Shown here piece after piece: positions 93 to 39,410 of a DNA stretch of 64,000 nt. Position 1 is the first letter of the stretch, and the number at the start of each line of letters is the position of its first letter. The stretch comes from Chelativorans sp. J32. Lineage in GTDB: Bacteria; Pseudomonadota; Alphaproteobacteria; Rhizobiales; Rhizobiaceae. The stretch spans positions 62,001 to 126,000 of the forward strand of contig NZ_JAEQ01000008.1 in NCBI RefSeq assembly GCF_000518985.1, in the 5' to 3' direction. The position numbers were made by a program, and so were the translations under genes. The notes under the pieces are model-generated. The model saw nothing but the letters and a program-made list of their open reading frames with translations. It was not told the DNA's origin and searched no databases.

Positions 93-119
93 CTAGTGAT
101 CACCTCAACTGCAGTTACA

Positions 120-130
120 CTGCGGTGCAG
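120..130. promoter_or_regulatory. CTGC-N3-GCAG element (PhaR/AniA-like)
   Basis: CTGCGGTGCAG is an exact instance of CTGC-N3-GCAG, the form described for sites of the PHB-responsive repressor PhaR. It lies 28 bases upstream of the left-edge gene start. Assignment to PhaR is inference. Confidence 0.4.
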
Positions 131-378
131 CAAAACCGACTTCACACATCTTTACTAGCCTGGTTGTAGAATAATGAGGATCGTTCATTCGCAACCTAAG
201 GTCGTTATGTACGTGGAAACAATAAAGCCTCAACTTTTGTGGCAAAGAGAAGACAATAAGATCTTGTATCAATCACTTTATTCGACCGCTGTTCACATAA
301 ATTTCGAGAATGAGGTCGATCATTTTCCTGGAATTGAGGTTTTGCAGGTTGCTCCCGCGGCGGCCCGGTGCCATCCTA

Positions 379-395
379 TATTGCATTGCAGCATA
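379..395 (+). promoter_or_regulatory. exo-type motif upstream of exoK
   Basis: ATATTGCATTGCAGCAT, ending 50 bases before the exoK start codon. It differs by only one base from the copy upstream of exoL (8578-8594) and is closely matched by the one upstream of exoY. The core TTGC-ATT-GCAG is a near-palindrome of the YTGC-N3-GCAR type. A shared regulator binding site is likely; its identity is inferred. Confidence 0.55.
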
Positions 396-445
396 CGGAA
401 GTCGCTTCCTGATTGGTATACCCTACAGAAAGATGAGGTCCCGAT

Positions 446-1210
446 ATGGCAGAAAATTGTTTCCCGCGAATCTCGACGCTTGTCGCAACTCTCCTGATCG
501 GGGGGACATGGCCGGCCTTCTCGCAGACGACGGGAACCTCTTTTTTTGATGATTTCGACAATTTCGACCGGTCACGCTGGTACGTGTCCGATGGCTGGGC
601 CAATGGCGAGTGGCAGAACTGCACCTGGTCGAAAGGCCAGGTGAGCGTTGCCAATGGCATCGTCACGCTCGGATACGAGAAGAAGCCCTACAACAATCGG
701 GAATATTCATGTGCGGAGATCCAGACGACCGCCCGTTTTGGATACGGTGTCTATGAAGCCCGGATGAAGACGGACGAGGGTTCGGGCATCAACGCCGCCT
801 TCTTCAGCTATACGAACTCGCCCCATGACGAGATCGATTTCGAGGTGCTGACGAAGGACACTTCCAAGGTGAGCCTCAACACCTATGTTTCCGGCAAGCC
901 GCACAACGGGGCGACTGTGGAGGTGCCGTCAGGCACGACGCAATTCAACCATTATGCCTTCGTATGGGAGCAGGGTCGACTGCGCTGGTATATCAACGGC
1001 AAGCTCGTCCACGAGGCAACCGGGGCGAATCTGCCGACCAATCCGCAGAAGATTTTTTTCAGCCATTGGGGGAGCGGCACCTTCACGGATTGGATGGGAG
1101 CCTTTGCAGACCCGGGCCGAAAGCTGAAAATGGAAGTGGACTGGGTGGCCTATACGGCTCCGGGCGATGCGTGCCAGTTTCCGGAATCGGTGGCCTGCAA
1201 TCTGAACTAG
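446..1210 (+). CDS. exoK: GH16 endo-beta-1,3-1,4-glycanase ExoK
   Basis: A secreted glycoside hydrolase family 16 enzyme, 254 residues. ExoK proteins cut nascent succinoglycan-type polymer to lower its molecular weight. The N-terminus (about residues 1-26, ending PAFSQ) looks like a signal peptide. The family signature EIDFE lies at 129-133, with Glu129 the expected nucleophile and Glu133 the acid/base. Trp-rich substrate-cleft segments precede it. The start is supported by GATGAGG about 7 bases before ATG 446. It is the first of three plus-strand genes (exoK, flippase, exoV) and has its own upstream interval carrying the exo-type motif, so it may be transcribed separately from the other exo blocks. 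The identification rests on the GH16 signature plus exo context. Confidence 0.9.
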   Translation: MAENCFPRISTLVATLLIGGTWPAFSQTTGTSFFDDFDNFDRSRWYVSDGWANGEWQNCTWSKGQVSVANGIVTLGYEKKPYNNREYSCAEIQTTARFGYGVYEARMKTDEGSGINAAFFSYTNSPHDEIDFEVLTKDTSKVSLNTYVSGKPHNGATVEVPSGTTQFNHYAFVWEQGRLRWYINGKLVHEATGANLPTNPQKIFFSHWGSGTFTDWMGAFADPGRKLKMEVDWVAYTAPGDACQFPESVACNLN

Positions 1211-1261
1211 GAATTCTGCCGCGTACCCTTTGCCGGATGCGGCTCTAGATTGAGGTAAAGC

Positions 1262-2761
1262 GTGCTCGCCGAAGGTGAGAAGCACCAGCAAGAAGACGGC
1301 GCATTCAGCCATATGCGTTCCGGGCGGGCGCAGGCCGCAGTGCGCGGCGCGCTGTGGGCCGGACTGAACAGCTTTGCGCCAGCCGTGGTGGCGGCCGGCG
1401 TTTTCACGGTCACGTCACGGTATCTCACGCCCGCCGAATATGGCCTTGTGATGCTCGCCGCCAGCATTTCGTTCTTTGCTTCCGCGATCGCTCCGGCGGG
1501 CTTTGGCGAGGCGCTGATTCAGCGCCGCGATGTCACCAAGAAGCATGTAGATGCGGTGTTCTGGCTCTGCGTCGGCAGCGCGCTTCTGATTTATGGCGGC
1601 CTTTTGCTGCTTACGCCGCTGCTGGCAAAGTTCCTCGGGCAAGCAGGCCTGCTGACGCTTCTTCCGGCGGTGGGTTTGCGCGTTGTCTTCGACCAGGCGG
1701 CGATCGTTCCCAGTTCGCTTCTGGCGCGGTCCATGTCGTTCGACAAGATCGCCCTGCGCACAACCATCGCTTCCCTGGTGGCTGCGGCGGTCTGTGTTCC
1801 GCTTCTGCTCATGGGGTACGGGGCTTGGGCCCTGGCGCTTTCCTTTGTTGCGGGCTCGATCGCCACCTTCTCCGCCGCGTTCCTCTCCGTCGCCTGGAAG
1901 CCGGGATTGAATTTCAGCCTCAACTCGTTGCGTGAGGTGGCCCGCTACGGCGTGTTCGCCTCGGGCAACCGCACGATCCAGCTCCTCAATTCAGATCAAC
2001 TGCTGATCGGCTGGCTGCTGGGTACTGCGCCGCTCGGCATTTTCAGCTTTTCGCGCCGCATATACCAGCTTCTCAACGACCTGATCGCAGGTGCGCTGAG
2101 AACGGTTTCCTTCACCATGCTGTCTTCGCTACAAACCGAACACGAGAAGCTGAAGGAAGCCTTCCTCTTTGCCACATTCGCCTCTTCGGCCTTCTCATTT
2201 CCCATCTTTGTCGGGCTTGCCGCGGTGGCAGGCGATCTCGTCCCGCTTGTTTTCGGCAGCCATTGGGCCGAAGCCGTGCCCTCGCTCCAAGCCTTTTGCG
2301 CCCTGGGGTTGATAAGCTGTATCGGCGTGCTGCAATCCTCGTTGATCACCAGCCAGGGGAGGGTGGGCTGGTGGATGTCATACCAGGCCGCCCAGCAAAT
2401 CCTTTCCGCGGTGGTGATCCTCGCCCTCTATCGGTTCGGCATTACCGTCGTGGTCGTCGCCATGGCCGTAAAGACCTTGATCACCTGGCCGATATCGGTG
2501 GCGCTCACGCTGCGCATCCTGCGGCTCGACGTCCTTTCCTATGCCCGCCAGTTCCTCGCGCCGGTCGTGGCGTCGGTCGTGATGTTTGCGAGCGTGCTTG
2601 CGGTCAGGAGTGCGATGCCGGAGGCGCATCCGGTCGTCACTTTGACGTTAGAGGTGCTCACCGGAGCCCTTATCTACGGAGCGGTGCTTGCGGTCCTGGT
2701 CGGCCGACAGCTCCTGCGCATGCGAGATCTGATCCTGAAGAGGGGTGCTGTTGCCTCATGA
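1262..2761 (+). CDS. exoT: Wzx-type oligosaccharide flippase (ExoT-like)
   Basis: An integral membrane protein of 499 residues, hydrophobic throughout, with about 12-14 predicted transmembrane helices, of the polysaccharide transport/MATE-like (Wzx) superfamily. It should flip undecaprenyl-linked EPS repeat units across the inner membrane before polymerisation by ExoQ. Start: GTG 1262 has TGAGGT six bases upstream; an in-frame ATG at 1313 is an alternative that removes 17 polar residues. Its stop codon overlaps the exoV start (ATGA at 2758-2761), indicating translational coupling. Family membership is clear; the name exoT comes from the operon context, and other rhizobial flippases of the same family would look similar. 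Confidence 0.8.
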   Translation: MLAEGEKHQQEDGAFSHMRSGRAQAAVRGALWAGLNSFAPAVVAAGVFTVTSRYLTPAEYGLVMLAASISFFASAIAPAGFGEALIQRRDVTKKHVDAVFWLCVGSALLIYGGLLLLTPLLAKFLGQAGLLTLLPAVGLRVVFDQAAIVPSSLLARSMSFDKIALRTTIASLVAAAVCVPLLLMGYGAWALALSFVAGSIATFSAAFLSVAWKPGLNFSLNSLREVARYGVFASGNRTIQLLNSDQLLIGWLLGTAPLGIFSFSRRIYQLLNDLIAGALRTVSFTMLSSLQTEHEKLKEAFLFATFASSAFSFPIFVGLAAVAGDLVPLVFGSHWAEAVPSLQAFCALGLISCIGVLQSSLITSQGRVGWWMSYQAAQQILSAVVILALYRFGITVVVVAMAVKTLITWPISVALTLRILRLDVLSYARQFLAPVVASVVMFASVLAVRSAMPEAHPVVTLTLEVLTGALIYGAVLAVLVGRQLLRMRDLILKRGAVAS

Positions 2762-3657
2762 AGCTCGTCTATTTCCGTGGCCATGTGCCGAACTTCGGCG
2801 ACGAACTGAACACCTATATGTGGCAGCACCTGTTGCCCGCCGGTTTTCTTGACGAAGACGAACGCGATCTCTTCATCGGCATCGGCTCGATCCTATGGGA
2901 CACCTTTCCCCGGTCGGCACGAAAATATGTCATGGGCTCTGGCTATGCGGGCTACACCGGCCTGCCGGATGTGCATGACGGGAGCTGGGACATCGTGTTC
3001 GTGCGCGGTCCTGAGACGGCGCGGGTTCTGGGCATCGAGCCGGAAAAGGCCATTTGCGATTCGGCGGTCCTTTTGCGGGCTCTTCAACTGCCGGCAGCTG
3101 CTCCCACCTTCGATGTCGGCTTCATGCCCCATTATGAGAGCCTGGACCGGGGGCTTTGGGAGGAGGCTTGCCGCCTCGCCGGCATCCCGCTGATCGATCC
3201 GCGTGACGACGTGGAAAAGGTCATTTCCCAGATTCGCGGCGCTCGCATGATCATCACCGAAGCGATGCATGGTGCGATCGTGGCCGACGCCTTGCGCACG
3301 CCATGGGTGGCGGTAAAACCCATCAATCCGGGCCATCATGCGAAGTGGAAGGACTGGTCCGGTGCACTTTCCATGGATGTCTGCTTCCACGATCTCCGTC
3401 CTTCGAGCCTTCTCGAATTTTATGTCGGGTTGACCGGCGGCCGAGGAGATCCGAACGGCCGCGCCGGGCGGCTCAGCAGAAGCGCGCTGGCGACGCCCGC
3501 AAACAGGGTGCTTGTCAATCTCGCGGCTCGGCACCTGCGGCAGATGGCAACCGCCGCGCCACAGCTGAGCCGTGACGAGAAGATCGCAGAGGTGACCGAG
3601 CGTGCGTTGGAGGCGCTGCACGGTTTCGTCCGTGCGCGCCAGCTGAGCTTCACCTGA
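2758..3657 (+). CDS. exoV: Polysaccharide pyruvyl transferase ExoV
   Basis: A 299-residue polysaccharide pyruvyl transferase family protein, expected to ketalise the terminal sugar of the EPS repeat with pyruvate from phosphoenolpyruvate. It opens with the family-typical MKLVYFRG...NFGDELN segment, and the later ITEAMHGAIVADALRTPWV segment matches the conserved substrate-binding core. The same frame is open from 2263, but the true start is ATG 2758, which overlaps the flippase stop. Pyruvylation makes the polymer acidic, fitting a succinoglycan-like product. It ends 10 bases before the convergent exoQ. Confidence 0.88.
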   Translation: MKLVYFRGHVPNFGDELNTYMWQHLLPAGFLDEDERDLFIGIGSILWDTFPRSARKYVMGSGYAGYTGLPDVHDGSWDIVFVRGPETARVLGIEPEKAICDSAVLLRALQLPAAAPTFDVGFMPHYESLDRGLWEEACRLAGIPLIDPRDDVEKVISQIRGARMIITEAMHGAIVADALRTPWVAVKPINPGHHAKWKDWSGALSMDVCFHDLRPSSLLEFYVGLTGGRGDPNGRAGRLSRSALATPANRVLVNLAARHLRQMATAAPQLSRDEKIAEVTERALEALHGFVRARQLSFT

Positions 3658-3666
3658 CGACGCCGG

Positions 3667-4953
3667 TCACCGCGACCGGCTACTGACTCCAAGCATCGTG
3701 CCTCCCGGAATCGACTCCGGCTTCCGCACCGGTGCGCCAGCGCGCACCGTATAGATGAATGCGCAGATCACGATGATCGAAGTAATGCTGAACTGGAAGA
3801 ACACGGCCACCTCGATGAAACTGCTGCAAACCACATAGGTGAGGAAGGAAGCGAAGAAGGCCGTCTCCGGCGCGGGTGCCTTAAATGCCCACAGATAGGC
3901 TCTGGCGAGGGCGCCATAGAGAAGCAGAATCTGCAGACCCACGCCAATCATGCCGATCTCGACGGCGTTGTTCACATAGGTGTTGTGGAAGTTGAAGCCG
4001 GCGCGTGCGTTGATGCCGAAGACGGCCCAGAGCAATTCGGCGGGTGGATAACCCTGTACCCAGAATGCACGATAGCCAAGACCGAGCCATGGATGCTCGC
4101 GGATGAACTGGGCTGCGAAGTGCCAGAGTTCCGTCCGTCCAGTCAGCGTGACGTCCTTGCCCGAGGCATCGAGCAGATTCTGGAGCAGGTAATCGGAATA
4201 TTGCAGCACCAGGATCACCCCCGCCAGGCCGAGGCAGGCGACTAACCCGCCCAGAAAGAGCTTCTGCCAGTGGGTAAGGCGTCGGCTGAGGAGGATGGCG
4301 AGCGCCAGACCTGCGGCGGGAAGGATGAAGAGAATGGCGCCCGTCGATTGGGCGCTGATGAGCAGGGGGCCGGCGGCAGCGATTCCGGCGAGCGCTGCGA
4401 AGCGCATCAGGCGGGGCGCCGTGCGGTCGAACAGCATGGCGATCGAGGCGAGCGTAAATGCACAGATCACGGCGGCAAAGGCGTTCTTGCTACCGAAGAT
4501 CCCGATCCACGCGCCGATATCGTCACGTATCCGGCCGAAGAGGATGCTGCCGACAATGCCGATGCCATAGATGCTGAAAAGAAAGCGTATGAAGGTCGTC
4601 GGCGAAATCCGCGTGGCGATGGCAATGGCGATCACCACAGTGATGGTGAACTGCAGTCCATAGCGAAAAGAGAGCCCGGGAAATTGCGACCACAGAATCG
4701 AGAGCAGGCAGAACCCGGGCAGGATCAGGAGATACCAGAAGCGCAGGATAGCCTGCAGGCTTGCAGCAGGCCGTATCGCAAGCAAAAGGCATCCTGAAAC
4801 GAGGAACAGAAGCGCGCTAAGCGAGCCGAAAAAGGAATCGAAGATCAAAGCCGCGAGCGCAGTGAAGCTCAGGCTCGCGGCGACACCGATCTGCAGCCGT
4901 CTGCGGCCCACGCTGGCGGCAACATGCGGGTGCGACAGCCCTAAGGCCGACAT
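3667..4953 (-). CDS. exoQ: EPS polymerase ExoQ (Wzy/O-antigen ligase family)
   Basis: A polytopic inner-membrane protein of 428 residues with 10-12 hydrophobic segments, typical of Wzy/WaaL-type polymerases. The long periplasmic loop before the C-terminal helices contains the family-like stretch HPWLGLGYRAFWVQGYP, around residues 285-300. In succinoglycan systems ExoQ is needed for high-molecular-weight polymer. It is the third gene of the minus-strand set exoY-exoF-exoQ, 28 bases after exoF, so it is probably co-transcribed with the export and priming genes. GGAGAG lies upstream of ATG 4953. Confidence 0.85.
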   Translation of the reverse strand: MSALGLSHPHVAASVGRRRLQIGVAASLSFTALAALIFDSFFGSLSALLFLVSGCLLLAIRPAASLQAILRFWYLLILPGFCLLSILWSQFPGLSFRYGLQFTITVVIAIAIATRISPTTFIRFLFSIYGIGIVGSILFGRIRDDIGAWIGIFGSKNAFAAVICAFTLASIAMLFDRTAPRLMRFAALAGIAAAGPLLISAQSTGAILFILPAAGLALAILLSRRLTHWQKLFLGGLVACLGLAGVILVLQYSDYLLQNLLDASGKDVTLTGRTELWHFAAQFIREHPWLGLGYRAFWVQGYPPAELLWAVFGINARAGFNFHNTYVNNAVEIGMIGVGLQILLLYGALARAYLWAFKAPAPETAFFASFLTYVVCSSFIEVAVFFQFSITSIIVICAFIYTVRAGAPVRKPESIPGGTMLGVSSRSR

Positions 4954-4981
4954 CCATTCTCTCCGTGCGTCCGATCACGCT

Positions 4982-6268
4982 TCATTGGCCGGCGGAGAAC
5001 TGGAGGGCAGGGGGCAATTCCTGTTCCACTTTGATCACATCGCCGGGCCAGACGGTTGAACTCTCGTCGGCAAGCAGCATCGTCGCCTTTCCGTTCACGA
5101 CGCGCACAATGGTGATCTTCGGTTCCGGCAAGCCGCTGCGGCTCGCTGCTGCCGGTGCTTGTGCCAAAGCTTCCGCCATCAGCCCGCGCTGGGTCTGCAT
5201 CGTGATGCGGTTCTCCTCCAGCTTGGCCTCGATCTCCTGCCGTTCAACAGCCAGCTCCGAGACGGCGGTGTTCTTCAGGTTTATGGCGTCCTGCTCCGCC
5301 TTGCTGATATCCTGGCGTGCCGTCAGGATCGCCGTTTCGAAATCGAGCAGCTTGCTTTCCATATCGGCGATGTTGCGCTCCGAGGTAAGCACGCGCGTAT
5401 TGACCACAAGGCCCTTATCCGCCAGCGAGCCGACGCCTTCGAGTTCTTTCCTTGCAAGCTCCACCTGGCGGGTCTGCGTGGCAACCTTCTTCTCCAGGGA
5501 GGAGATCTCCTGCTGAAGCAGTTCCTTGAGATCGTCCAGGGCCTGGAGTTGGAGTGTAAGCTGCTTCTGCCGCGCATCCATGATCGCCTTCTCATCCGCA
5601 AGGATGCTGGGAAGCTTGGGGTCGGAGGCGATCTCGTCCGGCACCTGGATTTCAGCCTGACCCTGCAGTTCCGCCTCGATGCGAGCGCGCTTCACGAGCA
5701 GCCTTATGCGTTCGTCGGCGAGCGCATCGGCATTGCCCTGTGCGCTGATGAGATCGCGTTCGGCTCGGCCGCCGCTTGAATCGCGCCGCATCCCGCCGGC
5801 AATGCTCACGGCCTTAAGCACGGTCATGTCCGGCACATAGGGGTATTGTCCGGGCGAGTTGACGTCACCAGCCATATAGAATGGCCGGTACTCCGCCAAT
5901 TCCACCGCCGCCTCCGGACGGTCAGCCAGGCCGAATTTCTGCTGCAGTGTCGTCTCCACCGTCTCCGAAATTTCCGCGGTGGTCTTCCCCGCCGCTTCGA
6001 TCTCGCCCACGAAGGGGACCGATAGCTTGCCGGACGCACTGATCACATAAACGCCACTGACCGCCGACCATTCGCGGAAGGCGCCCTCCACGGTCTGCCA
6101 TTCCACCACGCGGATGTTCAGCTTGTCCTGGCTGCCCAGACGATACTCTTCCGCCGCTGCGTGGGCGGCCGGTAAAGTTCCGATGACGAGGGCGACAAGC
6201 GCGCCGTACAACCGCAAAGCCATGGGCATGGATTTGCTGCCGACGCAGAAGTGGTTGGATTCCAGCAA
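4982..6268 (-). CDS. exoF: Polysaccharide export protein ExoF
   Basis: A periplasmic/outer-membrane-associated export protein of 428 residues. After a hydrophobic signal segment (ending near AAHAAAEE, residues 34-41) come a poly_export domain (YRLGSQDKLNIRVVEW) and an SLBB-like part (YMAGDVNSPGQYPY). From about residue 175 to 375 a long, charged coiled-coil region follows, as in ExoF rather than short Wza lipoproteins. No lipobox cysteine follows the signal peptide. Start: TTG 6268 has AAAAGGA six bases upstream; ATGs at 6229 and 6223 would shorten only the leader. It should work with ExoP and ExoQ in polymer export. Confidence 0.88.
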   Translation of the reverse strand: MLESNHFCVGSKSMPMALRLYGALVALVIGTLPAAHAAAEEYRLGSQDKLNIRVVEWQTVEGAFREWSAVSGVYVISASGKLSVPFVGEIEAAGKTTAEISETVETTLQQKFGLADRPEAAVELAEYRPFYMAGDVNSPGQYPYVPDMTVLKAVSIAGGMRRDSSGGRAERDLISAQGNADALADERIRLLVKRARIEAELQGQAEIQVPDEIASDPKLPSILADEKAIMDARQKQLTLQLQALDDLKELLQQEISSLEKKVATQTRQVELARKELEGVGSLADKGLVVNTRVLTSERNIADMESKLLDFETAILTARQDISKAEQDAINLKNTAVSELAVERQEIEAKLEENRITMQTQRGLMAEALAQAPAAASRSGLPEPKITIVRVVNGKATMLLADESSTVWPGDVIKVEQELPPALQFSAGQ

Positions 6269-6357
6269 GTGCAGTCCTTTTCTGTACCAGGAGCCCGGGC
6301 ACAGCCCGGATTCATCGATTCAGCCCCCGCTGCCCAGCCGCACTCTGCGGCCCCTTT

Positions 6358-7047
6358 CTAATAGCTTCCGCGCGATAGACAGACGGCCGGAACGGTCTTG
6401 GCTATGATGCGGATGTCCTGCGCCAGCGACCAATTCTCCACATAATACCGGTCAAAGGCGACGCGGGTTGCATATGAGACGTCATTTCGTCCGCTTACCT
6501 GCCACAGGCCCGTCAAGCCGGGCCGCGACTTGAGGTAGAAGACTGCGGCACTCCCATATCGTTCCAGCTCTTCCTGGACGACCGGCCGCGGACCCACAAT
6601 GCTCATCTCGCCGGCAAGAATATTGAGGAATTGTGGCAGCTCATCGAGGCTGAGCTTGCGCAATACCGCCCCGACGGGCGTGACGCGTGGGTCGTTCTTG
6701 AGCTTGCGCGTGGCCTCCCATTCCGCCTGTGCTTCGGGATTCTCGCTCAGATAAGCCTGAAGCACAGCGTCGGCATCCTGGCGCATCGTCCTGAATTTCA
6801 AGCAACGGAAACGACGCCCGCCTCTGCCGATCCTCGCATGCCCGTAGAAGACGCTTCCGCCGTCGGAAAATTTCACCAGAGCGGCGAGGAGAAGCAACAA
6901 AGGACTGAAAAGAATGAGCGCGCAGAGCGCTCCCGTTATGTCGAACCCGCGCTTCAGCACCCCTCCGAGAGGGGTGGAAAGATCAAAATCCACCTCTGTC
7001 CCGGCGAAGTTCGCAGATTTGGCGATTTCCCGCATGAAAAGCCCCAT
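6358..7047 (-). CDS. exoY: Undecaprenyl-phosphate galactose phosphotransferase ExoY
   Basis: The priming enzyme of repeat-unit assembly, 229 residues, which moves galactose-1-phosphate from UDP-galactose to undecaprenyl phosphate. The sequence shows the bacterial sugar transferase fold. A membrane hairpin (about residues 30-60, [18 protein letters not shown]) is followed by [18 protein letters not shown] and IVGPRP, with the catalytic DE pair in SLDELPQ. It lacks the N-terminal four-helix domain of WbaP-type enzymes, as is usual for ExoY. Start ATG 7047 has GAGAGG eight bases upstream. It heads exoY-exoF-exoQ, and its promoter lies in the AT-rich interval shared with exoX. ExoX proteins are known to inhibit ExoY post-translationally. 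Confidence 0.92.
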
Positions 7048-7084
7048 CCAGCAACCTCTCAGATTACGCTTAGGTTAGCAGACT

Positions 7085-7101
7085 ATGTTGCGCTGCAATA
7101 T
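7085..7101 (-). promoter_or_regulatory. exo-type motif upstream of exoY
   Basis: Read on the minus strand it is ATATTGCAGCGCAACAT, about 40 bases before the exoY start. The core TTGC-AGC-GCAA is near-palindromic and closely resembles the copies before exoK and exoL at a similar distance from the start codon. Confidence 0.5.
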
Positions 7102-7366
7102 GACTTCTTTGGGAAACTCAAATTATTTTTGTGCTCAATTTATAAACACGAATTGCACAAAAATTGATATTCCTGGTACTTATATGACCCGGCTAATATA
7201 ACTGAGTGCTTCCATGGGGTTCTTGTATGGGTAAGTTAGATGAAGAAATGCTATTCACAAAGATGTAATATTCGGAAACATTAGTGATATATATTTGAAG
7301 TATAAGGATTAGTCTAAGCGAAAGTCGCGAATAGCGCGTCATAGAGCGGATTTGTCTACTGGGGTT

Positions 7367-7390
7367 CCAGGCGGTATGAGCCTGGTTTTT
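7367..7390 (+). terminator. Orphan terminator-like hairpin in the exoY-exoX interval
   Basis: CCAGGC (7367-7372), a seven-base loop, GCCTGG (7380-7385) and five Ts form a compact intrinsic terminator on the plus strand. No plus-strand gene precedes it. It could end a small RNA made from about 7100-7360, or attenuate a long exoX leader. Confidence 0.5.
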
Positions 7391-7414
7391 GCAGAAAATG
7401 CAGTTCTTTTGAGG

Positions 7415-7425
7415 TTGCAGCGCAA
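7415..7425. promoter_or_regulatory. TTGC-AGC-GCAA element upstream of exoX
   Basis: TTGCAGCGCAA is identical to the core found before exoY, 136 bases upstream of the exoX start. The flanks differ from those of the exoK, exoY and exoL copies, so it may be a weaker or different site. Confidence 0.4.
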
Positions 7426-7561
7426 TCGAGCAATCTCATGTGACTTTGCTGGTGGAGTCTGCGCGGGTATATTTTTATGGAATGCGGCCGGCGATCGGGC
7501 TAGGGTACTGACTGAACTCGTCAGTTAACGACTGGGAATGGGCCGCAGGACCGATAACAAT

Positions 7562-7828
7562 ATGTCTCTGCCAAAATTCGCAATTGGCATGATCTTCGTT
7601 ATCTTCGCGGTGGCGCTATGGTCGGCCATAGACACCGCTTCATTCGGCATGATTATCTTGCGCGCAATTATTTGCGCTATTGTCTTGCAGGTTGGCTATT
7701 TCATTTACGTGCTTGGGAAGGTGGCGATGCACTCCCGGGCGAAATCGAGGGGAAAAGCCGTCGAACCCGTCGCATCTGGTGCGAAGGGGAAAGCTGATCT
7801 TCCCTTGCAGCGCCCTCTGTCGCGCTGA
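7562..7828 (+). CDS. exoX: Exopolysaccharide production repressor ExoX (SyrA family)
   Basis: A small membrane protein of 88 residues with two hydrophobic helices (about 5-26 and 30-52) and a basic, polar C-terminal tail. This is the architecture of ExoX/SyrA/PsiA proteins, which lower EPS output by acting on the priming enzyme ExoY. Placement directly opposite exoY supports the call. I chose ATG 7562 because GCAGGA lies about 8 bases upstream and helix 1 then starts right after MSLPKF. An upstream in-frame ATG at 7538 adds eight polar residues. Its own upstream region has a TTGC-AGC-GCAA element and the orphan terminator hairpin, so ExoX dosage may be separately controlled. Confidence 0.8.
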   Translation: MSLPKFAIGMIFVIFAVALWSAIDTASFGMIILRAIICAIVLQVGYFIYVLGKVAMHSRAKSRGKAVEPVASGAKGKADLPLQRPLSR

Positions 7829-8057
7829 CCTCGTAGAAACTTAGGGATTTCTCAGAGAGTGTAGACTCGGGTATCAACCTCGCCCTAGGTCACATTCGTA
7901 TTTCGCAATGAAAACATATTTTCCTCGCGCCCGGGGCTATCGCTTTTTTTCAGGACACAATTTGTTTCTATAAACTTATTCGCCGGCGTGAGTATCTTGC
8001 TCGGCGGGCTACCTTTATGCTGTTGGCGCATCAAGATTGCAGCGAACGGAGAAGACA

Positions 8058-8393
8058 TTGGCATCGCTTTTCGGCTTCAAGACGCGCAGCCCTGAGCGGG
8101 ACCGTGATACGGATCGTGAGAGACTTGCGCGGCTGAGTGCGTTCCTCGGGGAAATGGCCGACCAGATAGCGGCGGAGAGGAGCGGTCTGGAGCGGCGCTA
8201 CCGGGAGGCGTCGACGAATGCGGGTTTCCTCGCGGATGCCATGGAAAATGAGGAAGTCTCCGCAGGTTCCTCTCACCGGCTCGACGCAATGACCGACGAT
8301 ATGCTCAATTACGAGCGCCGTCTCGCGGCGCTTTCGCGTCAGATCGGGGTGGTGGAAGATCTCCGTGCACGTGCACAGGCGCTTCTGGATTAG
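8058..8393 (+). CDS. Small unknown coiled-coil protein in the exo cluster
   Basis: A 111-residue acidic/basic heptad-rich protein without signal peptide or membrane helix, probably cytoplasmic. I see no catalytic motif and do not recognise a family; the residue pattern (LARLSAFLGEMADQIAAERS and later helices) predicts a long alpha-helical hairpin. The frame opens at TTG 8037, but TTG 8058 has GGAGAAG about 5 bases upstream and gives the N-terminus LASLFGF, so I prefer it. It sits alone between exoX and exoL with over 200 bases on each side, so it is probably transcribed alone. A role in EPS regulation is only suggested by location. Confidence 0.6.
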   Translation: MASLFGFKTRSPERDRDTDRERLARLSAFLGEMADQIAAERSGLERRYREASTNAGFLADAMENEEVSAGSSHRLDAMTDDMLNYERRLAALSRQIGVVEDLRARAQALLD

Positions 8394-8577
8394 GCTTCTA
8401 AGGTCTTAACGGCAATAACGGAACATTTCAGCATAAATGAAGAGGTGATTGCATAGTTTTGTCAAATCTTCGTCACATGCCGTCTTCATAATTTTACTGA
8501 TTGCGTAGGAAAGCTTTACGGCAAAGATTGTGCAGCGCGGCACAATTTGGCCGAATTTATTCGTAAATTGAATTCCA

Positions 8578-8594
8578 TATTGCAGTGCAGCATT
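8578..8594 (+). promoter_or_regulatory. exo-type motif upstream of exoL
   Basis: ATATTGCAGTGCAGCAT, ending 43 bases before the exoL start. It differs from the exoK copy at one base. It should control the exoL-exoA-exoM run. The surrounding 8398-8637 interval is AT-rich and otherwise empty. Confidence 0.55.
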
Positions 8595-8637
8595 AGCTGC
8601 TATACTGTTTCCAGTTGCGGGTAGTCGTGGGTGCCAG

Positions 8638-9813
8638 ATGCTGCATGTGCTTTATCTCGTCTTCAATCTAACGGACCCGGCCGTTCGTCGCCGAGTCATG
8701 ATGTTGAAGGCGGGTGGCGCGACTATCACGCTTGCGGGCTTCCGCAGGACTGAGGAGCCGCCTGCCGATATCGAAGGCATCCGCCCTATCGATCTTGGCA
8801 TCAGTCATGATGGCCGGTTTACGCAGCGGGCATTTGCGATTCTGAATGCGACCATGGCGCTTCGATCTGCTCTGAAGAGCGTTTCCAAGCCGGATTTGAT
8901 CATTGCGCGGAACCTGGAAATGCTGGTGCTTGCTTCGCGGGCTAAGCGGGTTTTCGGGGCCAATGACCTGCCATTAGTCTATGAGAGCCTCGACATCCAT
9001 CGCTTGCTTTTGCGGCGGGATCCGTTCGGCCATGCGCTGCGCTTCCTTGAACGTTATCTCGCGCGGAATGCGGGGCTCCTCATAACCAGCTCGCCTGCCT
9101 TTGTACACAATTACTTCGCGCCGCGCGGCCAAGTGAGTGCGCCCGTAAAGCTCATCGAAAACAAGCACTTGGAGTTGGTCTCGACCGAGGGTGTGGAGAG
9201 GCCGGCCCAAGAGCAGTCGCCACCTTGGAAAATCGGTTGGTTCGGCGCGCTGCGGTGCAGACGCTCACTTGCGATCCTGTCGGAGTTTTCCCGCCGTTCC
9301 CAAGGCCGGTTCCTGATAACGCTGAGGGGGAAACCCGCCCTTCGCGAATTCGAAGACTTCAGCGGAGCGGTCGCATCCGAGCCGTATCTTTCCTTCGAGG
9401 GTCCGTATCGCAACCCCGAGGACCTGGCTGCCATCTACGGAAAGATCCATTTTTCATGGGTCATCGACTTCTTCGAGGAGGGGCAGAACTCGAAATGGCT
9501 CCTGCCCAACCGCCTTTATGAAGGCTGCCGCTTCGGTGCAGTACCGATCGCAATGCGTGATACGGAAACGGCGCGTTTTCTGGAGGAGCGCGGGATCGGC
9601 ATTATCTTGCCCGAACCTACGGCTGATGCCTTGGAACGGGTCGTCGGCGGCATGAGTCCCGAGCGCTACCGGGAACTTCGCGGCCGGGTGTTGGAGCTCG
9701 ACCGCAAGACATGGACCTGTGACCGCCAGGATTGTGTCGACCTTGTAAGCCAGCTCCGGCGGCTTGTCGCCGAAACGCAACCCGTCATCGTCAAGGGATT
9801 TGCTCAAGCATGA
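8638..9813 (+). CDS. exoL: Succinoglycan glycosyltransferase ExoL
   Basis: A cytoplasmic GT-B-type glycosyltransferase of 391 residues. ExoL proteins add a beta-1,4 glucose to the growing lipid-linked repeat unit. The N-terminal segment MLHVLYLVFNLTDPAVRRRVMML and the downstream IIARNLEMLVLA and VYESLDIHRLL stretches are characteristic. The second domain contains IGWFGALRCRRSL and SWVIDFFEEG...NRLYEG, the donor-binding side. Its stop overlaps exoA (ATGA at 9810-9813), coupling translation. No strong Shine-Dalgarno is visible before ATG 8638. It is the first gene of exoL-exoA-exoM and lies behind the exo-type motif. Confidence 0.85.
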   Translation: MLHVLYLVFNLTDPAVRRRVMMLKAGGATITLAGFRRTEEPPADIEGIRPIDLGISHDGRFTQRAFAILNATMALRSALKSVSKPDLIIARNLEMLVLASRAKRVFGANDLPLVYESLDIHRLLLRRDPFGHALRFLERYLARNAGLLITSSPAFVHNYFAPRGQVSAPVKLIENKHLELVSTEGVERPAQEQSPPWKIGWFGALRCRRSLAILSEFSRRSQGRFLITLRGKPALREFEDFSGAVASEPYLSFEGPYRNPEDLAAIYGKIHFSWVIDFFEEGQNSKWLLPNRLYEGCRFGAVPIAMRDTETARFLEERGIGIILPEPTADALERVVGGMSPERYRELRGRVLELDRKTWTCDRQDCVDLVSQLRRLVAETQPVIVKGFAQA

Positions 9814-31600: not shown

Positions 31601-31636
31601 TCGCCCGGGTTCCGGTGAACAACGGATAGATGCTGC

Positions 31637-31668
31637 CTTGCACCAAAAATTCCTGGTTCTTATATACG
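31637..31668 (+). promoter_or_regulatory. Sigma-32 (RpoH) heat-shock promoter of dnaK
   Basis: CTTG (31637-31640), an 18-base spacer, then CTTATATACG (31659-31668). This matches the published alphaproteobacterial heat-shock consensus CTTG-N17/18-CYTATNTNNG at every defined position. Transcription would start near 31675, about 110 bases before dnaK. Confidence 0.85.
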
Positions 31669-37969: not shown

Positions 37970-37989
37970 GGTTGTTTTTGGCTTGATTC

Positions 37990-38004
37990 TGCTGCGCTGC
38001 AGCA
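37990..38004. promoter_or_regulatory. Perfect TGCTGC-GCT-GCAGCA palindrome upstream of phaZ
   Basis: A 6-3-6 inverted repeat containing CTGC-N3-GCAG, the form described for PhaR (AniA) operators of PHB genes. It lies 143 bases before phaZ. Because phaZ degrades PHB, PhaR control is a reasonable inference. Confidence 0.6.
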
Positions 38005-38147
38005 ATAGCTTATTCGTCGGGTAATCGTTGATGCCTAGATATTTCAAGGCGATGCTATAAGTCGGGTTTCTATCGCATTGCACCAGAAGCGCGTCATTCT
38101 GCCAGGGCACCTGCCGTCCGCCTGAGTTCTCGCCGGAAAGGTCTGCA

Positions 38148-39410
38148 ATGTATTATCAGCTTTACGAGCTTCATCACGCCGCGCTTCAGCCCGCGCGGGT
38201 CTGTGCGGACGCGATCAGACTTTTTTACTCAAATCCGCTGAATCCTGTCTCGACCACTGCCTGGGGGCGGTCGATCGCCGCGGCCGCCGAGATGTTCGAG
38301 CGCACCACACGCCGTTACGGGAAGCCTGAGTTCGGCATCGCCTCGACCGTGGTGGACGGCAAGAAGGTGAAGATACGCGAAAAGGTCGTGTGGTCGCGCC
38401 CGTTTTGCCGCCTTGTACATTTCGAGCGCGCGCTGCCGTCCAAGCGGCAGCCGGATGCAAAGCTCCTGATGGTGGCTCCCATGTCGGGCCATTATGCAAC
38501 CTTGCTACGCGGCACAGTCGAGGCCATGTTGCCCCATGCGGATGTCTACATCACCGATTGGACAGATGCGCGGATGGTGCCGTTGTCCGATGGCTCTTTC
38601 GACCTCGATGATTACATCGACTATCTCCTCGAGATGTTCCGTCTGCTCGGTCCCGGTGCAAGCGTGATGGCGGTCTGCCAGCCATCGGTCCCGGTTTTGG
38701 CGGCGGTTGCACTGATGGAAGCGCGTGGGGATCAAAACCTTCCCTCATCGATGATCCTCATGGGCGGCCCGATCGATACGCGCAGGAATCCGACCGCGGT
38801 GAACCGGCTGGCTCAGCAGCATGGCATCGACTGGTTCCGCGACAATGTGGTCATGCAGGTACCGTGGCCCAATCCCGGCTTCATGCGGCAGGTCTATCCG
38901 GGCTTTCTCCAGCTCTCCGGCTTCATGAGCATGAACCTCGACCGGCACATCGTCGCGCACGAGGACTTCTTTTTGCATCTGGTGAAGGGGGACGGGGATT
39001 CCGCGGAAAAGCACCGCGAATTCTACGACGAGTATCTGGCGGTGATGGATCTCACGGCAGAATTCTACCTGCAGACCGTCGACACGGTGTTCATTCGCCA
39101 TGCCCTTCCAAAGGGCGAGATGACGCATCGGGGCGAACGGGTTGACCCGGCCGCGATCCGGTCCGTGGCTCTGCTTACGATCGAAGGCGAGAACGACGAC
39201 ATCTCCGGGATCGGGCAAACGCAAGCTGCGCATGATCTTTGCATCAACATACCCGCTGGAAAGCGCGCTCATCATCTGCAGCCCTCGGTGGGGCATTATG
39301 GCGTGTTCAACGGGTCGCGGTTTCGCAAGGAGATCGTGCCACGCATTGCCGGGTTCATCGCCGACAACCGTGGCGTGAGGGCTACACCTCGCCGCAAACC
39401 TGCGCCATAA
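38148..39410 (+). CDS. phaZ: Intracellular polyhydroxyalkanoate depolymerase PhaZ
   Basis: Degrades stored poly-3-hydroxybutyrate granules; 420 residues of the native-PHB (Ralstonia PhaZ1-type) family without signal peptide. The nucleophile is Cys177 in AVCQPSVPVLA, in place of the Ser of typical lipase boxes; GENDDISGIGQTQAAHDLC supplies the Asp and SVGHYGVFNGSRF the His. N-terminal MYYQLYELHHAALQPAR is highly typical. It is monocistronic by spacing, with a PhaR-like palindrome upstream. Its presence shows the host stores PHB. Confidence 0.94.
   Translation: MYYQLYELHHAALQPARVCADAIRLFYSNPLNPVSTTAWGRSIAAAAEMFERTTRRYGKPEFGIASTVVDGKKVKIREKVVWSRPFCRLVHFERALPSKRQPDAKLLMVAPMSGHYATLLRGTVEAMLPHADVYITDWTDARMVPLSDGSFDLDDYIDYLLEMFRLLGPGASVMAVCQPSVPVLAAVALMEARGDQNLPSSMILMGGPIDTRRNPTAVNRLAQQHGIDWFRDNVVMQVPWPNPGFMRQVYPGFLQLSGFMSMNLDRHIVAHEDFFLHLVKGDGDSAEKHREFYDEYLAVMDLTAEFYLQTVDTVFIRHALPKGEMTHRGERVDPAAIRSVALLTIEGENDDISGIGQTQAAHDLCINIPAGKRAHHLQPSVGHYGVFNGSRFRKEIVPRIAGFIADNRGVRATPRRKPAP

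Follow-up and report, generated by a model that had tools for sequence, protein, structure and literature searches.

PhaR-type palindromic sites before exopolysaccharide genes of Chelativorans sp. J32 and their conservation across the family

The stretch of DNA analysed here (the window) comprises 64,000 nucleotides of Chelativorans sp. J32 (Rhizobiaceae; contig NZ_JAEQ01000008.1, positions 62,001 to 126,000) and carries the exopolysaccharide (EPS) genes exoK, exoY and exoL, an exoX-like gene and, further along, phaZ, which encodes an intracellular polyhydroxybutyrate (PHB) depolymerase. An earlier examination of these letters without database searches (the sequence-only reading) had noticed a 17-base motif upstream of exoK, exoY and exoL and taken it for the site of a common regulator of EPS genes, perhaps of the PhaR/AniA type, or for a conserved promoter element. 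We confirmed that the motif is real. Very probably, it is a palindromic operator for PhaR (AniA), with the core TGC-R-N-Y-GCA and AT-rich arms, through which the exo genes would be controlled in dependence on PHB.

Exact copies of the 17-mer, ATATTGCANYGCARCAT, were found in the window at 378-394 (+), 7085-7101 (-) and 8577-8593 (+). The sequence-only reading had all three and placed the second correctly, but put the beginnings of the others one base too high, at 379 and 8578; the exoK and exoL copies differ at one base, as it had said. The 17-mer is separated from the start codon by 51 bases at exoK (ATG at 446), 37 at exoY (ATG at 7047) and 44 at exoL (ATG at 8638). These values bear out the earlier estimate of about 37-50 bases; because they differ, the spacing is similar but not fixed, and the claim of a fixed distance does not stand. 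The whole 4.70-Mb genome contains no exact copy beyond these three. Matches numbered 5 with at most one mismatch and 15 with at most two, compared to 0 for a reversed-pattern control. Allowing up to three mismatches, there were 8 matches in the window, 3 of which are opposite-strand readings of the same three palindromes; 100 shuffles of the window gave a mean of 1.10 and a maximum of 4. The motif is therefore rare in the genome, and genes for EPS and PHB are among those that it precedes; this was one of the checks that the sequence-only reading had named. A looser core, TTGCNNNGCAR, was too common to be informative (272 forward and 271 reverse occurrences compared to 145 and 155 for its control) and was set aside.

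To score sites we used a 21-base palindromic matrix built from 20 Sinorhizobium meliloti PhaR sites in Table 3 of PMC12542648, all with gel-shift evidence rated efficient or weak and with EPS genes excluded. The training sites themselves score 14.0-26.4, and a score of 14 was taken as the threshold for a site. Shuffling the 64 kb 100 times gave scores no higher than 17.7 (mean highest, 13.8), and the six best sites in the window all exceed that value (Table 1). A matrix made from PhaR sites at non-EPS genes thus recovers the exo and phaZ sites in a genome that encodes PhaR, which supports a regulator of the PhaR/AniA type. The core of the PhaR palindrome, TGC(R)N(Y)GCA between AT-rich arms, is present at exoK, exoY and exoL, at the second exoL site and at 115-135. 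The last of these contains the core that had been reported at 120-130, which proved to be among the strongest sites in the window. It also lies 310 bases before exoK; since it is so close to the ATG of the divergent glycosyltransferase gene, its target may be the latter and not exoK. The core reported at 7415-7425 before exoX is likewise present, but as a strong site it is not supported: its score of 8.6 lies below those of all the proven sites in the matrix.

Table 1. Genes and PhaR-type sites in the window (window coordinates; matrix scores and their ranks in the window)
Feature	Position	Strand	Evidence and remarks
exoK, endo-beta-glycanase	446..1210	+	NF052392 363.2 bits (cut-off 350)
exoY, sugar transferase (priming step)	6358..7047	-	PF02397 214.9 bits
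exoX-like, EPS repressor protein	7538..7828	+	NF052519 37.3 bits (cut-off 140), PF11089 21.3 (cut-off 25); both below cut-off
exoL, glycosyltransferase	8638..9813	+	37 family relatives, 51-65% identity
phaZ, intracellular PHB depolymerase	38148..39410	+	TIGR01849 664.3 bits; PF06850
Divergent family-2 glycosyltransferase gene	starts at 92, extends out of the window	-	PF00535; L033:14575-16092:-
PhaR-type operator, phaZ	37987..38007		matrix 21.6, rank 1 (best)
Second PhaR-type site, phaZ	38068..38088		matrix 14.9
PhaR-type operator, exoL	8575..8595		42 bases before ATG; exact 17-mer 8577-8593; matrix 19.9, rank 2
Second, weaker PhaR-type site, exoL	8525..8545		matrix 14.5
PhaR-type site, dnaK	31628..31648		137 bases before dnaK; matrix 18.9, rank 3
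PhaR-type operator, exoK	376..396		49 bases before ATG; exact 17-mer 378-394; matrix 18.9, rank 4
PhaR-type operator, divergent family-2 glycosyltransferase gene	115..135		22 bases before its ATG (92, minus strand); matrix 18.5, rank 5
PhaR-type operator, exoY	7083..7103		35 bases before ATG; 17-mer 7085-7101 (-); matrix 18.3, rank 6; near-start class
Weak core between exoY and exoX	7410..7430		matrix 8.6, rank 22; gap of 362 to exoY start

The gene name exoL is that of the sequence-only reading: its product had no NCBIfam match, and PF13579 fell slightly below its cut-off. Between exoX and exoL there is an open reading frame (ORF) of 118 amino acids (8037-8393) with no match in Pfam or NCBIfam. 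A terminator-like stem followed by a T run lies on the plus strand at 7367-7385, between exoY and exoX and just before the weak core; the scan found three such structures in all, with 2.0 expected.

PhaR is encoded once in this genome, by a gene whose product matches PF07879, PF05233 and TIGR01848 (140.8 bits), all above their cut-offs, and so has both the DNA-binding and the PHB domains. A strict form of the palindrome, WTNNTGCRNYGCANNAW, was found 24 times in the genome, compared to 2 for its reversed control, and 20 of the 24 score at least 14.0 on the matrix. These palindromes stand before the genes for phasin (two sites), citrate synthase (gltA), pyruvate phosphate dikinase (ppdK) and 3-hydroxybutyrate dehydrogenase, and before the exo genes; the remainder precede genes without a profile identification or lie inside ORFs. 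The PHB genes of this genome carry the same type of site, two at phasin, two at phaZ and one at 3-hydroxybutyrate dehydrogenase. The sites at phasin, gltA and ppdK, together with the binding of S. meliloti PhaR to the exoH, exoL and exoY promoters (PMC12542648), lend further weight to the PhaR/AniA assignment. What is established here, by computation, is that the sites exist, that they match proven PhaR sites, that the genome encodes PhaR and that the sites are conserved as described below. Two other strong PhaR-type sites were seen elsewhere in the genome, one scoring 24.2 between ORFs that by eye resemble trigger factor and trmFO (L298; G000:C9:67920) and one scoring 24.0 before an ORF that by eye resembles a MarR-like regulator (L221; G000:C2:355668).

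For this organism we infer PhaR binding itself and the sign of its effect. PhaR not engaged by PHB would bind the operators and lower transcription of exoY, exoL, exoK and the divergent glycosyltransferase unit. As PHB granules form, they would take up PhaR, and the EPS genes would be released along with those for phasin and PHB depolymerase. Sites near the start codon, such as that of exoY, would presumably act by covering the promoter.

We determined whether the sites are kept in the family by scoring the 450 bases upstream of each gene. The exoY set consisted of 39 family genomes, our own included, that matched at E 2.6e-91 or better (50 weaker matches were excluded), and the phasin set of the best 30 of 125 genomes with a match. 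Sites scoring at least 14 were found in 37 of the 39 exoY promoters, the other two scoring 13.9 and 12.1, and in all 30 phasin promoters among those best 30. Scores of 14 were far less frequent in shuffled upstream regions (39 of 1560 for exoY, 9 of 1200 for phasin) and with column-permuted matrices (exoY, 10 of 780; phasin, 4 of 600). Background segments of 450 bases reached 14 in 0 of 120 cases inside genes and 9 of 355 downstream of them. The motif is therefore kept before exo genes in related species. In a later sample the exoY site was present in 8 of 8 family genomes, six from one genus and two from another. These were 8 of the 10 family genomes newly met (G284 and G029 were left out), and one of them (G526) has a doubtful exoY orthologue with its site 428 bases out.

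These counts bear on one alternative, that the three near-identical copies inside 8.2 kb arose by chance or are inherited repeats within the exo cluster. We give this explanation a negligible probability, given that 37 of 39 diverged exoY promoters retain the site, that the genome has no further exact copy and that the reversed control gave none. Together, the data suggest that a link between PHB and EPS is a general feature of those family members that have exoY.

Several observations weigh against the motif being a PhaR operator, among them the counts at exoL and exoK. After exclusion of three weak matches among 41 genomes (G023, G088, G129), the exoL set had 38 upstream regions, of which 17 have a site of at least 14 of their own and 21 do not; for exoK, 30 of 37 genomes were scored (7 remaining unscored), with a site in 5 and none in 25. 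Shuffled regions reached 14 in 12 of 1520 cases for exoL and 4 of 1200 for exoK. Much of this pattern follows operon position. An exoL site was present in 17 of 19 genomes in which exoL is apart from exoK or at least 105 bases after it, and in 0 of 18 in which it follows exoK by less than 105 bases, a cut-off chosen post hoc. In 14 of those 18, a site of at least 14 lies at exoK or at an ORF in the place of exoH (exoH by position and length only). The site is rare before exoK of relatives because exoK is usually inside an operon headed by such an ORF. Tallied by hand, about 33 of 37 testable genomes have a site at the head of the exoL operon: before exoL itself in 17, before exoK in 4 (G104, G148, G107, G125) and at the exoH place in 12, with 2 weak and 2 lacking; a contig edge made G086 untestable at exoL.

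Most of the exoL and exoK regions that lack a site are explained by operon position; the remainder counts against PhaR control. Two genomes (G033, G131) have no site at the head of the exoL operon, hits in G033 having been set aside because their coordinates identify them as its exoY sites, and in two others (G108, G060) the site there is weak, at 12.6; in G011 and G107 there is room before exoL, yet the site is found only further up; and for 2 of the 12 exoH-place sites (G128, G054) the ORF, read at its longest, includes the site. To the same side belong the 4 of 24 strict palindromes of our genome that score below 14, and the empty promoter scan at the sites described below. Outside the family, only 3 of 12 exoY-like genes had a site (all 12 genomes met from other families were covered), and among exoY paralogues, represented by 20 of the 50 weaker matches, sites were found in 7.

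The paralogue sites lie at 181-190 bases (four), 138-139 (two) and 398 (one). With this many sites, the paralogues could not be used as a negative control, and the in-gene and downstream segments and the shuffles took that role instead. The same counts suggest that PhaR also controls other EPS clusters. The seven sites precede sugar transferases other than exoY (L305, L306, L308, L312, L314, L315, L317).

A further point against PhaR comes from genomes in which the protein was not detected. The 17-mer with at most one mismatch is present in 126 of 151 family genomes (the reversed control gave 5 matches in total). Of 134 genomes that encode PhaR, 115 have it, as do 11 of the 17 in which no PhaR was detected (p 0.04). 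The difference is weak, and the motif is not tightly tied to PhaR. Its persistence in those 11 genomes would fit control of the exo genes by some other regulator that binds a palindrome of similar sequence. We regard such a regulator as highly improbable, given that a matrix from non-EPS PhaR sites recovers the exo sites, that S. meliloti PhaR binds the homologous promoters (PMC12542648) and that PhaR is present in all 39 genomes with an exoY orthologue. In addition, among the genomes without PhaR one (G110) is only 68% complete and several are smaller than 2.1 Mb. Two near-complete genomes without detected PhaR or phasin (G026, G126) still have 4 and 2 near matches to the 17-mer, some of them mismatched in the core.

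The position of the operator at exoY is not uniform. Two groups of sites can be told apart, one near the nominal start (14-43 bases before it) and one far from it (about 300-370 bases). In a tree of ExoY proteins (midpoint root for drawing only; bootstrap not fully settled), the 16 genes without a near site all lie on one side of a branch with 100/100 support. Their far sites score at least 14 in 15 cases and 13.9 in the remaining one, and their near-site scores never exceed 6.7. All 23 other exoY genes, including that of the window, have a near site, scoring at least 14 in 21 and 12.7 and 12.1 in two; in 9 of them a far site reaches 14 as well. The S. meliloti exoY site, 369 bases from the ATG (PMC12542648), belongs to the far group by position. 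In our window, the weak core at 7410 sits at the far place, 362 bases before exoY, and may be a decayed far operator.

Sites of the near group lie about where a -35 element would be expected, and the motif might then be a conserved core-promoter element of the exo genes rather than the site of a regulator. If the start of S. meliloti exoY transcription, 18 nt before the ATG in Table 3 of PMC12542648, holds here, the exoY site would span approximately -18 to -38; and a short CTGCTA, which may belong to a -10 region, is seen by eye after the operators of exoL and exoY at the same spacing (8577-8610 and 7068-7101). We nonetheless consider a core-promoter element very unlikely. The site is palindromic, unlike a -35 element, and stands at many distances (14-43 and about 300-370 bases at exoY, 44-141 at phasin) and before phaZ, gltA and ppdK as well. 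A sigma-70 consensus scan of positions 1-500 and 7000-8700 (-35 and -10 with a spacer of 16-18) found no promoter at the sites.

With PhaR as the regulator, the two layouts invite a historical account, to which we give an even chance. The family's succinoglycan-type clusters would have had PhaR control of the EPS priming enzyme from their founding, and an early exoY promoter would have carried both a near operator and a distal one some 350 bases away. One group, to which S. meliloti would belong by the place of its site, would have kept only the distal operator, and others, including this organism, the near one, with the distal one decaying. EPS clusters with exoY paralogues would have gained their PhaR sites separately (7 of 20, at mostly clustered distances). 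Repression would then be expected to work differently in the two layouts. They permit a direct test, comparing PhaR repression of exoY from about 350 bases with that from beside the start codon.

Experiments in a relative have already demonstrated PhaR control of exo genes, so the kind of regulation is not new. In S. meliloti, PhaR bound the exoH, exoL and exoY promoters efficiently in electrophoretic mobility shift assays and repressed these genes according to reporter data, with an effect that depends on PHB and so links EPS to it (PMC12542648). New here are a further genus, the extent of this control among family members with exoY and the split operator layout at that gene. Neither a family-wide survey nor a description of the two exoY layouts was seen among the papers that a literature search listed, none of those listed on Nitratireductor and EPS contains that genus name, and the words Nitratireductor, Agrobacterium and Rhizobiales are absent from the main text of PMC12542648. 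In this further genus, too, one repressor would tie carbon storage to the production of a surface polymer.

The arrangement resembles the S. meliloti PhaR regulon (PMC12542648) in its palindrome, in the sites at the exoL and exoY promoters, in the site before the first gene of the exoK unit (in S. meliloti exoH, in our genome exoK itself) and in the phasin, phaZ, gltA and ppdK targets, all listed in Table 3 of that paper. It differs in the distance from the exoY site to the ATG, 35 bases instead of 369, in that exoK heads its own unit with no exoH seen upstream, and in the sites at dnaK and the divergent glycosyltransferase unit, which are outside that table. Bradyrhizobium diazoefficiens PhaR has the consensus TGCRNYGCASMA and likewise has phasin and phaZ among its targets; its EPS target is an exoZ-containing operon and not exoY, exoL or exoK, and EPS is increased in a phaR mutant (PMC6201568).

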